DNA of 63,089 nt from NCBI GenBank assembly GCA_022710975.1, contig JAKLGA010000025.1, forward strand, positions 1 to 63,089, in the 5' to 3' direction. Position 1 is the stretch's first letter. Each line of letters starts with the position of its first letter. The position numbers and the translations under genes are program-made. The notes below the pieces were generated by a model. The model made no database searches. It was not told the DNA's origin and saw nothing but the letters and a program-made list of their open reading frames with translations. This stretch comes from Myxococcota bacterium (GTDB taxonomy: Bacteria; Myxococcota; B64-G9). Positions 7,122-11,279 of the stretch are shown piece after piece.

Positions 7122-8444
7122 ATGCGCGTCCCCCTTCCGCTGCTGCTGATCGCCTGGCTGCTGGCCGGCTGCTGCCCACGAAGCGAGGCCTACCTGCGCG
7201 CCGAGGCAGACGACGCCCTGGCCCTGGCCGCGCTGCCCACGGGCCCGGACGGCCCGGACGGCGCGCACGTGGCCGTGCAGCTCCGCCTGGCGAGCCTCCA
7301 CCGCCTGCTGCAGGCGCCGGCGCTGCTCGCGGCCCTGCCGCCCTTCGAGCGCAGCCTCGAGCTGCCCCTGCCCTTCGCCGCCCGGGGCGTGCCGCTGGCC
7401 GTCAGCTTCCGCGTCACCCGGCTCGGGCTGGCCCTGGCGCCCGGACAACCGGTGCGGCTGGCGCTGCGGGTCGGCTACCAGGCGGCGGTGCGGGTGGGCG
7501 GGCGCGGGGCCGGCCTGGAGGTGCTCCTGCCTACCGGCGAGTGGGGGCTGCCGGCCGAGCTCGCGCTCGAGGCTGCCGTGCGGCTGGTGGCCGAGCCCGA
7601 CGGGTCCAGCGCGCTGGCCCTGGACCTCAGCCGGGCCGCGCTGGGGCTGTTCGAGCTCTCCCTGGAGGCCCTGCCGGCGCCCCTGCCCGGGGCGCTGCGG
7701 GAGCTCCTCCTGCCGCTCGCCCGGGCAGTGGCCGACGCCACCCTCTCGGAGCTTCGGCTGGCGCGCATCCCGCCGCTCCCGCTCGGCGCGGGCGGGCTGC
7801 GGGTCTCGGCCCGCAGCCTGCGGCTGGACGCGGCGCGCGACGAGCTGCAGCTCGGCCTGTGGACCAACCTGGCCGTGCCCGAGGACGGGCTGGTCCGCCC
7901 GTCCCTCGACCGGCCGCTCGAGGCCGACGCGCGCATCCGCCTGGCGTCCGCCCTGCCCGAGCTGGCCACGCGCGCGCTCCTGCACCAGGGCGGCCTGCCC
8001 CGACGCCTCGACACCGACATGCGCCCCGACCCCGAGGGCGCGCGCGCCCTGACCCTCACCCACCTGGAGTTCGAGGGGCAGGAGCTGCGGCTCGCCTTCC
8101 GCCTGTGGTCGCTGTGCGTCCCGGTGTTCCAGGCCGACCTCTTGCTCCGCGCCCGGCTCAGCCAGGGCGCCGACGGACGTTTCGCGCTCGAGGCCGCGCC
8201 GCTCGAGCTCCTCGCGGCCAGCGACTACGCGGACCGAATCCGCGCCTCCCTGGCCGAGCCGGCCGAGGGCCTGCGGTCGCTGCTGGATTCGCTGGAACGG
8301 CTGCTCGACGAGCGTTGGCTCTCCCTCGGCCCCGAGGCCAGGCTCGGCTGGCGGCCGCTCGCCTACCGGCTCGGTCCGGAGGCGATCGAGGTGGATGGCC
8401 GGCTCGAGGTCCGGGGCGCAGAGCCGCCCCATCCCGTCCCCTGA
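7122..8444 (+). CDS. Predicted beta-rich lipoprotein of unknown function
   Basis: The 440-residue protein starts three bases after the stop of the large surface lipoprotein (TGA GCG ATG), which suggests translational coupling. Its signal ends L-L-A-G-C17-C18. The body is very rich in Leu, Ala and Arg, with alternating V-x-L-x-V patterns (about 80-170 and 215-350), consistent with long amphipathic beta strands. A DUF4403 or TULIP/BPI-like lipid-binding fold would look like this, but I cannot confirm it. No catalytic motif is visible. The overlapping long frames on both strands have no signals and are shadows. Confidence 0.75.
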   Translation: MRVPLPLLLIAWLLAGCCPRSEAYLRAEADDALALAALPTGPDGPDGAHVAVQLRLASLHRLLQAPALLAALPPFERSLELPLPFAARGVPLAVSFRVTRLGLALAPGQPVRLALRVGYQAAVRVGGRGAGLEVLLPTGEWGLPAELALEAAVRLVAEPDGSSALALDLSRAALGLFELSLEALPAPLPGALRELLLPLARAVADATLSELRLARIPPLPLGAGGLRVSARSLRLDAARDELQLGLWTNLAVPEDGLVRPSLDRPLEADARIRLASALPELATRALLHQGGLPRRLDTDMRPDPEGARALTLTHLEFEGQELRLAFRLWSLCVPVFQADLLLRARLSQGADGRFALEAAPLELLAASDYADRIRASLAEPAEGLRSLLDSLERLLDERWLSLGPEARLGWRPLAYRLGPEAIEVDGRLEVRGAEPPHPVP

Positions 8445-8516: not shown

Positions 8517-9491
8517 TCAGGCAGCGGGCAGCTCGAGGGTGAGGAGCTCGGCGGCGGGCGGCTCGAGCCGGCCCACGCCCAGCTCCTCGGCCAGGCGCAG
8601 GTGTTCGATCTGGCGGGGGGCCATGCGCTTGCCGTACAGCGGCGCCAGGGTGACGCCCGCGGCGTCGACCGCCACCGGGTCCGTGCCGGCCACCAGGCTG
8701 TCGGCCGCCACCAGGGTGCCCGGGCCGACCGGCCCGTTGTCGGTCATCACCTCGAGCCCCTCGAGGATGCACAGGTGTGGCCGCACAGCGGTGCCGAGGT
8801 CGGCGATGGCCTGATGCAGGTCGAGGTCGCCGTGGAAGCAGCGCCGATCCCAGATCACTCCCATGGCGCCCTTGAGCACCCCGGTGAAACGCGCGCCCCC
8901 ATGGCTCTTGGCCAGGGGCAGCGCGATGTGCACGTCCGCCTCCAGCACAGCCTTCAGCACCTTGGTCCGCTTGAGCGCCCGCCCCCGGGGCACGGCCACG
9001 TCCGCGAACTGGCCCTCCTCGCCTGCGATGAGGAGCTCCACGGGCAGCCCCTTCAAGGCCTCGGCGTAGCGGTTCGTGGTCAGGATCTCGTCCCCGTCCC
9101 GGCAGGGGTAGTCGGCGATCAGGATGCGCTTGGCGCCGCAGGCCTGGACCTTGCGCACCACCGCCGCGGTCAGCCAGGGCGAGGTGGTGGCGCGCACCGC
9201 GGGCGCGTTGGGGAAACCCAGGTTGGGCTTGAGCACCACCGTCTGGCCGGCTCGCACGAAGGCGGCCATGCCGCCCAGCGGCGCGAGCACCCGCTCGAGG
9301 GCGCGGTCGAGGTCCTGCCGCGCCCCGGGCCCCTTGCCGACCACCAGCCGCGGTCTGGCCGCGCTCGCCTCACCTCCGTCCGGGGACGGAGGTGCTGCCG
9401 ACGCCGCCAGCGCGCGGCCTCCGAGGGACAGCGAAGCGAGGCCCAACGCCGTGTTACGCAAGAATTTTCGACGATCGATCGGACCGCTCAC
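8517..9491 (-). CDS. DUF362 family protein with a twin-arginine signal
   Basis: I choose the GTG at 9491 because GGAGGTGG lies three bases upstream, and it places a twin-arginine motif (D-R-R-K-F-L-R) at residues 6-12, giving 324 residues. A hydrophobic stretch follows, ending in A-L-A-A, so export by Tat is expected. The mature part matches the DUF362 family, with V-V-L-K-P-N-L-G-F-P near residue 90, a central K-S-H-G-G and a C-terminal V-A-V-D-A-A-G segment. DUF362 proteins are often associated with ferredoxin-type clusters, but no 4Fe-4S cysteine set is visible here. The function is unknown. It is divergent from the SurA-POTRA gene across about 150 bases, a likely promoter region. Confidence 0.8.
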   Translation of the reverse strand: MSGPIDRRKFLRNTALGLASLSLGGRALAASAAPPSPDGGEASAARPRLVVGKGPGARQDLDRALERVLAPLGGMAAFVRAGQTVVLKPNLGFPNAPAVRATTSPWLTAAVVRKVQACGAKRILIADYPCRDGDEILTTNRYAEALKGLPVELLIAGEEGQFADVAVPRGRALKRTKVLKAVLEADVHIALPLAKSHGGARFTGVLKGAMGVIWDRRCFHGDLDLHQAIADLGTAVRPHLCILEGLEVMTDNGPVGPGTLVAADSLVAGTDPVAVDAAGVTLAPLYGKRMAPRQIEHLRLAEELGVGRLEPPAAELLTLELPAA

Positions 9492-9641
9492 GAGCCACCT
9501 CCGTCCCCGCCTGGTTGCAGGATACCTCAGGGGGCTCTTCAGGACAATAGGACCTTTACTGTCCCATACCAACCCTGTTTTCCTGACTGCTTCCGTCCTT
9601 CGGAGGTGGACCCGGGCCCTGCCCGAGAGGATGATGGACCC

Positions 9642-11279
9642 ATGCTGTCGATGCTCGCCTTCGCCTGGCTGCTGCTGTCACCCCCCGCGCCCGCGGTGCT
9701 CGACCGCGTGGCCGCCTCGGTGGACGGCGAGGCGGTGCTCCTGTCCGAGCTCCTGTCGCGGGCGGGTCCCGCCCGCCTCGCAGCCGGCACGGCCGCGCCG
9801 GAGCCCGGCGCGCCGCTTTCGCCCGCCGAGCGAGGCCTGCTCGGCCAGGTGCTGGACGGGCTGATCCGGGAGCGGCTGGTGGCGGCCGAGGCGGGCCGGC
9901 TGGGGATGGCCGTCTCGCCCGAGGAGGTGGAGGTCGCCCTTGGCGCGGTGGCCGCGCAGAACGGGCTGGAGCGGAGCGCCCTGCTGGCGGAGCTGCCTGG
10001 TCTGGGATTCTCGGAGGCGAGCTACCGGGTTCAGCTCGGCCACCAGCTCCTGCGCGCCAGGCTGCTCCAGGTGCGGATGTCGAACCGGGCCAGGCCGCCC
10101 GGCGGGCCCGAGGCCTGGCAGGCGCAAGCCGTGCTGGAGGACGAGGCCCTGGACCGGGAGCTGGAGCAGACGGCCGCGATCGAGCGCCTGCTCGAGCTCC
10201 CGGCGCCCGCGCGCCCGGCACAGGATCCACCGCCGGAGGCCGCGCGGGCCCCGGGCTGCCCGGGTCAGCCGGGCCTGCCCGAGGCGCGCGCTCCGCTGGT
10301 GCGGGCGCCAGCTCCCTGGCCCGCGGCGCGCCTGGCGCGCGTCACGGTCGTCTCGTCCGATCCCTGGCGCGCCGCCCTGGGACGCCTCCTGGTCTCCACG
10401 CATCCCGGCGAACCCCTGGACACGGGGCGGGTGGCTGCGGATCTCCGCCGGCTGTGGGCCGAGGGCGACGCGGCCGAGCTCTGGGCCGAGGCCCGCACCG
10501 GGGCCGAGGGGCTCGAGCTGGTCTACGTCCAGCGCCCGCGCGCCGTGCTCGGTTCGCTCACGCTGAGCGCCCCGGCCGGGCTGGGCCGCTCCGAGGCGGG
10601 AGAGCTCCTCGAGCTCACGCCCCAGGCGCCGCTCGACCCGCGCGCGTTGCGGCGGGCCGAGCGAGAGCTCGGCGAGCGCCTGCGGCGCCGCGGCTACCTC
10701 GAGGCCCGCCTGGCGTGGCACCACCGGATGCAGCCCTCGGGCCTGGCGCTGCCCGCCCCGGTGGAGCTGTGCCTGCAGGTCCAGCCCGGGCCCCGCTACC
10801 ACATCGGCCCGCTGCGCTTCACGGGCAACCGGCGGCTGTCGGAGCAGCAGCTGCGGGCCTGCATCGGCCCGGAGCCGCTCGAGCGCGCCTGGGCCGAGCC
10901 GGACCTGGCCGCCATGCTGCTGCAGGCCTGCTATTACGACCGCGGTATGATCCAGGCCCGCGTCGAGGCGCCCGCCCCCAGCGCCTTCCGCACCGGCCGC
11001 GTGGTCGCGCTGAGCGTGCGCATCGAGGAGGGCGAGATCTACTCCCTGGGCGGGCTGCGGGTGCAGGGCGCCCTGGCGGCGCCCGAGGCGGACTACCTCG
11101 CCGCCCTGGGACTGGCGAGCGGCGCGTGCTTCTCGCGGGCCGAGGTGCAGGCAGGGCTGACGCGCGTGGCCGAGCTGCACCGCAAGCTCGGCCGGGCGGA
11201 GCTGCGGGCCGAGCCGCGCACCGAGATCGACGCAGAGGTGCGCCTGGTCAACCTGACCCTCGAGATCCTGCCTCCCTAG
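9642..11279 (+). CDS. SurA-like chaperone domain fused to POTRA repeats
   Basis: The 545-residue protein starts at the ATG after GAGAGG; the longer frame upstream is antisense to the DUF362 gene. A short hydrophobic leader is followed by a SurA/PpiD-like N-terminal domain (about 22-150): the opening V-A-A-S-V-D-G-E-A-V-L-L-S-E-L is the hallmark, then helices ending in Q-L-G-H-Q-L-L-R-A-R. After an Ala/Pro-rich linker, residues about 225-545 hold several POTRA-type units, including G-N-R-R-L-S-E-Q-Q-L and repeated R-G-Y-L-E-A-R or D-R-G-M-I-Q-A-R turns as in BamA/TamA. There is no parvulin domain and no C-terminal beta-barrel. A periplasmic outer-membrane-protein assembly factor is inferred. 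Confidence 0.75.
   Translation: MLSMLAFAWLLLSPPAPAVLDRVAASVDGEAVLLSELLSRAGPARLAAGTAAPEPGAPLSPAERGLLGQVLDGLIRERLVAAEAGRLGMAVSPEEVEVALGAVAAQNGLERSALLAELPGLGFSEASYRVQLGHQLLRARLLQVRMSNRARPPGGPEAWQAQAVLEDEALDRELEQTAAIERLLELPAPARPAQDPPPEAARAPGCPGQPGLPEARAPLVRAPAPWPAARLARVTVVSSDPWRAALGRLLVSTHPGEPLDTGRVAADLRRLWAEGDAAELWAEARTGAEGLELVYVQRPRAVLGSLTLSAPAGLGRSEAGELLELTPQAPLDPRALRRAERELGERLRRRGYLEARLAWHHRMQPSGLALPAPVELCLQVQPGPRYHIGPLRFTGNRRLSEQQLRACIGPEPLERAWAEPDLAAMLLQACYYDRGMIQARVEAPAPSAFRTGRVVALSVRIEEGEIYSLGGLRVQGALAAPEADYLAALGLASGACFSRAEVQAGLTRVAELHRKLGRAELRAEPRTEIDAEVRLVNLTLEILPP

Follow-up and report, generated by a model that had tools for sequence, protein, structure and literature searches.

A SurA-like chaperone core fused to a barrel-less POTRA array in a Myxococcota genome and its two-gene counterpart in another family of the phylum

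Introduction

How outer-membrane proteins (OMPs) pass from SurA to BamA is under active study. In E. coli, the isolated SurA core binds BAM with an affinity comparable to that of full SurA and can complement ΔsurA in its membrane sensitivity, and residues 23–28 of SurA extend the edge of BamA POTRA-1 by a strand (PMC11366764). Here we analyzed a Myxococcota locus that raises the question of what a protein might do that carries both partners of this interaction in one chain. The window (the whole stretch of 63,089 nucleotides that was analyzed) contains a gene for which an original prediction had proposed a SurA-like chaperone fused to POTRA domains, lacking a parvulin domain and a barrel, that would act as a soluble shuttle docking onto the BAM machine.

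Results

The ATG at position 9642 opens a 545-aa ORF (9642–11279, + strand) whose GC content by codon position in the sense direction (0.84/0.55/0.94) follows a strong coding-type pattern. The predicted protein begins with a Sec signal followed by a SurA core; a proline-rich linker then leads to four POTRA domains, which match POTRA1–4 of BamA (Table 1). Residues 229–545 align to residues 24–344 of E. coli BamA, such that the C-terminus coincides with the end of POTRA4 and both POTRA5 and the barrel of BamA are absent. The signal region contains no cysteine when the sequence is read and therefore no lipobox. Because it lacks this site, and with it a lipid anchor, the protein is probably soluble and free in the periplasm. 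The proposal of a single soluble chain thus stands for the single chain, which is given by the ORF, and its solubility is probable given a signal peptide without lipobox. Three cysteines of the POTRA part (C377, C407, and C430) are shared with the aligned relative from genome G007.

Table 1. Features of the window gene and of the encoded protein.
Feature	Position in window	Strand	Evidence
Whole gene, 545 aa + stop	9642..11279	+	ORF, codon-position GC
Sec signal peptide, residues 1-18, MLSMLAFAWLLLSPPAPA, no lipobox Cys	9642..9695	+	Sequence; aligned with SurA and SurA-core signal peptides
SurA_N, residues 20-141	9699..10064	+	Pfam PF09312 E 3.4e-9; alignment to E. coli SurA
SurA-core C-terminal helix + strand, residues 166-187	10137..10202	+	Profile of stand-alone cores; alignment
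Proline/alanine-rich linker, residues 188-228	10203..10325	+	Sequence; model pLDDT about 25-36
POTRA1-like, residues 229-300, partial in model	10326..10541	+	Alignment to BamA 24-91; model
POTRA2-like, residues 301-383	10542..10790	+	Alignment to BamA 92-172; model
POTRA3-like, residues 386-464	10797..11033	+	Alignment to BamA 175-263; model
POTRA4-like, residues 467-545	11040..11276	+	Pfam POTRA 469-542; BamA 266-344; pLDDT about 77-93

The N-terminal half was assigned by Pfam to SurA_N (PF09312; residues 20–140, E 3.4e-9, above the cut-off), and no Pfam match to a rotamase (parvulin/PPIase) domain was found in the protein. Profile and alignment place the C-terminal helix directly after SurA_N with no PPIase in between, and the helix and strand that complete the SurA core are present and align with the ends of SurA from E. 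coli and from the same genome. We used a ten-core profile built from stand-alone SurA-core proteins only, leaving the window sequence out. This profile aligned collinearly and end to end with the window protein (model positions 5–173 to residues 2–181, 89 bits); for full SurA proteins, the match breaks at the PPIase insertion and the final helix is picked up separately. Profile A6, composed of the window row and six cores, matched E. coli SurA with an E-value of 2.5e-18. Just before SurA_N, the segment PAVLDRV aligns with the strand of E. coli SurA (residues 23–28) that binds BamA POTRA-1. Since the full-length model of the protein is weak (pLDDT 50), our identification of the SurA half is based on sequence profiles.

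In the C-terminal half, Pfam detected three stretches of POTRA (PF07244, E 2.4e-14), and the protein gave no Pfam match to the Omp85 barrel (PF01103). The BamA model TIGR03303 matched residues 252–544 at model positions 24–318 of 741, which corresponds to the periplasmic part only, and profile A4 (the window row and eight relatives) matched BamA with E-values of 1e-37 to 1e-43. Structure prediction, which had been suggested as a check of the POTRA assignment, recovered POTRA folds: the model of this region (pLDDT 71.8, from a 3-sequence alignment) presents repeated beta-alpha-alpha-beta-beta units, the first of them partial. Compared with residues 34–344 of E. coli BamA, it yielded a Z-score of 17.0 over 286 residues (rmsd 5.7), using a comparison set without some POTRA types such as FtsQ. 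Because POTRA1 is partial in the model, its receptor edge may not be intact. Altogether, Pfam, the profiles, and the structure comparison confirm that SurA-like and POTRA domains occur in one chain, and the predicted lack of parvulin domain and barrel agrees with the lack of rotamase and Omp85 barrel matches in Pfam. We also considered a frameshifted or split BamA with a nearby barrel and rejected this candidate: the next gene encodes an M3 peptidase.

The genome (G000, 7.1 Mb) also encodes a SurA with a PPIase domain (contig C7), a BamA with a barrel (contig C4), and other Omp85 proteins (contigs C1 and C25). All five PF01103 matches of the genome are located on contigs other than that of the window gene. 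Given the separate SurA and barrel BamA, the window protein is an addition to the ordinary proteins and not the sole copy of either. Two further observations concern these families. A second SurA_N protein without PPIase, of about 247 aa, was found at C10:40083-40301 (-) (L125), adjoining an EngB-like GTPase gene, and contig C4 carries at 232959-235649 (L036) a BamA-like frame of 1145 aa with an extended POTRA array and a barrel.

The flanking genes of the window gene, encoding a DUF362 protein and the M3 peptidase (92 bp downstream), gave no hint of function, and scans for promoters and terminators of the locus found nothing. The DUF362 gene (8517–9572, -) adjoins on the opposite strand and presents a possible Tat signal below the cut-off. 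Further upstream, positions 7122–8441 (+) encode a predicted lipoprotein of 440 aa without Pfam match, and a gene near the window gene matches a myxobacterial Cys repeat below the cut-off.

We then considered related proteins. In another family within the same phylum (f8), a search with one barrel-less POTRA protein returned ten genomes at E 2e-43 or better, with BamA at E 8e-37 or worse. All ten genomes possess an ORF of 150–180 aa for a SurA core directly before the ORF of a barrel-less lipoprotein with four POTRA domains. The stop of the former and the start of the latter overlap by exactly 4 nt in every one of the ten pairs, and a lipobox-like site is likewise found in the POTRA ORF of each (10/10). 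The SurA-core ORFs end in an IEVRP-like motif, and the POTRA lipoproteins, which are 38–49% identical to the query used, measure 355–377 aa, apart from one that is truncated at a contig end. The homologue search recovered the same two halves in ten genomes, there as a gene pair and not as one chain. Here the module is defined by a SurA core without PPIase that is either fused to a barrel-less protein of four POTRA domains or encoded beside it, and on this definition the window protein belongs to it. The existence of a separate two-gene version in ten other genomes strongly supports that the SurA core and the POTRA domains belong together functionally.

The flanks of the f8 pairs vary where they were read, and include LGT, a Ser/Thr kinase, a sigma-54 activator with a histone-deacetylase-like gene, sigma-70, and a transhydrogenase. 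By eye, an OmpA-like neighbour was common to two or three close genomes of one f8 genus. One carrier of the pair (G172) has a further POTRA lipoprotein gene without SurA core upstream (L115, G172:C796, 209–1291, -). Among the nine genomes of the window's own class, two others, G007 and G005, encode a POTRA protein that lacks a barrel and carries a lipoprotein signal; neither gene has a SurA core as its neighbour. In G005, the gene (L035, G005:C339, 541–1644, -) contains one in-frame TGA, reflecting either a pseudogene or an assembly error. The distribution is patchy, comprising three of the nine own-class genomes (the window's included) and the ten f8 genomes. A light search of contigs for copies in other phyla, using patterns from three sequences, returned only the two known relatives.

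A tree of POTRA1–4 with 64 rows placed the barrel-less proteins, including that of the window, on one side of a branch supported at 100/99 and all BamAs on the other; the G005 row is one of the barrel-less proteins of this tree. The union of the three own-class barrel-less POTRAs with own-class BamA was rejected (p-AU 0.003). Leaving out one set at a time kept the other intact, with support of 100/99 for the own-class proteins and 100/100 for those of f8. The end branch of the window POTRA is very divergent (2.57) and calls for a long-branch warning; because of such long branches, a single group of own-class and f8 barrel-less POTRAs is less certain than the 100/99 suggests. With a lipoprotein-only profile, the window POTRA scored 134 bits, below the f8 BamAs (about 177–208 bits). 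In the SurA_N tree, the position of the window core relative to the f8 cores had a support of just 51/33.

Discussion

On our results, the most fitting reading of the window gene is a SurA-core/POTRA module in fused form, which the genome retains in addition to its ordinary SurA and BamA. An origin by fusion of two genes is simpler to envisage than one by fission. As for its role, we give roughly even chances to the fused, soluble form being an auxiliary holdase-plus-receptor for OMPs, a satellite of the BAM pathway. The SurA core without PPIase would hold unfolded OMP chains. It might then engage POTRA1/2 of the same chain in the way SurA engages BamA, which would create a handover unit in cis, and the POTRA array would present or pass clients on to BamA, or shield them from aggregation. 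In f8, the lipid of the POTRA protein would tether the unit to a membrane, probably the outer membrane. More generally, we tentatively propose a two-component BAM satellite, in which a SurA core reduced to its minimum and a POTRA receptor lacking a barrel, encoded as an overlapping gene pair or fused, capture OMPs and relay them without BamA's own POTRA array. This wider scheme may well prove wrong, but if it is true, the handover between SurA and POTRA constitutes a separable unit. The docking onto the BAM machine that was originally predicted is plausible for the window protein. The picture of a free shuttle is less apt for the relatives because their POTRA half is a predicted lipoprotein; judging from these sequences, their module resembles a receptor that is anchored in a membrane and accompanied by its chaperone. 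It is also conceivable that the POTRA half serves the SurA core as a receptor in cis and is not a BAM adaptor.

Alternatively, the protein might act as a decoy or regulator of BAM. Its POTRA array would then vie with BamA for SurA, Bam lipoproteins, or clients and in this way throttle or gate assembly, and the SurA core would sense unfolded clients. A chain that stops precisely where POTRA4 ends could interact with these partners but cannot insert barrels, and full BamA and SurA coexist in the genome. The flanks, however, show no consistent pointer to regulation, and a decoy role does not itself explain the constant pairing with a SurA core; we consider it unlikely. The patchy distribution described above is what would be expected of a specialized function, such as that of a dedicated, BAM-independent chaperone for one or a few clients (e.g., a particular surface or secreted protein). 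No constant neighbour offers itself as a candidate client, however, and this explanation also appears rather doubtful.

It is far less probable that the gene is a functionless evolutionary remnant, in which a BamA paralogue that had lost its barrel and a SurA fragment came together by chance. The very long branch of the window POTRA and the in-frame stop in the G005 relative would fit such an origin. Against it stand the strong coding pattern of the window gene and the recurrence of the same parts and boundaries as an overlapping pair in ten genomes, whose POTRA proteins retain 38–49% identity to the query used. The p-AU of 0.003 also disfavours a recent truncation of own-class BamA.

The window protein resembles SurA in its signal peptide, SurA_N, C-terminal helix and strand, and N-terminal stretch aligned with the BAM-binding strand, but it lacks the parvulin/PPIase domain and carries four POTRA domains. 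It shares with BamA/Omp85 the ordered POTRA1–4 (Z 17 to BamA 34–344), but it has an N-terminal SurA core and lacks POTRA5 and the membrane barrel (PF01103), which is the defining feature of BamA/Omp85 (PMC4104836). The Omp85 lipoprotein subfamily of Bacteroidetes/Chlorobi has three POTRAs and retains the barrel (PMC4104836), whereas the window protein has neither barrel nor lipobox, the latter being present in the f8 and G007 relatives. The E. coli BAM-SurA complex likewise brings the SurA core and POTRA1/2 together, but there the partners meet in trans and BamA is full-length (PMC11366764), whereas the window gene encodes both in one chain. Finally, the f8 unit presents the same two domain sets in the same order, but as two overlapping genes with a lipobox on the POTRA half, in contrast to the single gene without lipobox of the window.

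In the literature searched, we found no published description of a natural SurA-POTRA fusion or of a barrel-less POTRA lipoprotein. The parts belong to known families, and what appears new relative to that literature is their combination, whether fused in one chain or encoded by two overlapping genes. The Omp85 survey was seeded from a barrel profile (PMC4104836) and, for this reason, would not list barrel-less POTRA proteins. These results indicate that POTRA arrays can persist without a barrel. The SurA-BAM complexes of E. coli were trapped by engineering disulphides and fusions (PMC11366764). With a SurA-POTRA protein that occurs naturally as a single chain, together with a natural gene pair, this interface could be studied without engineering.
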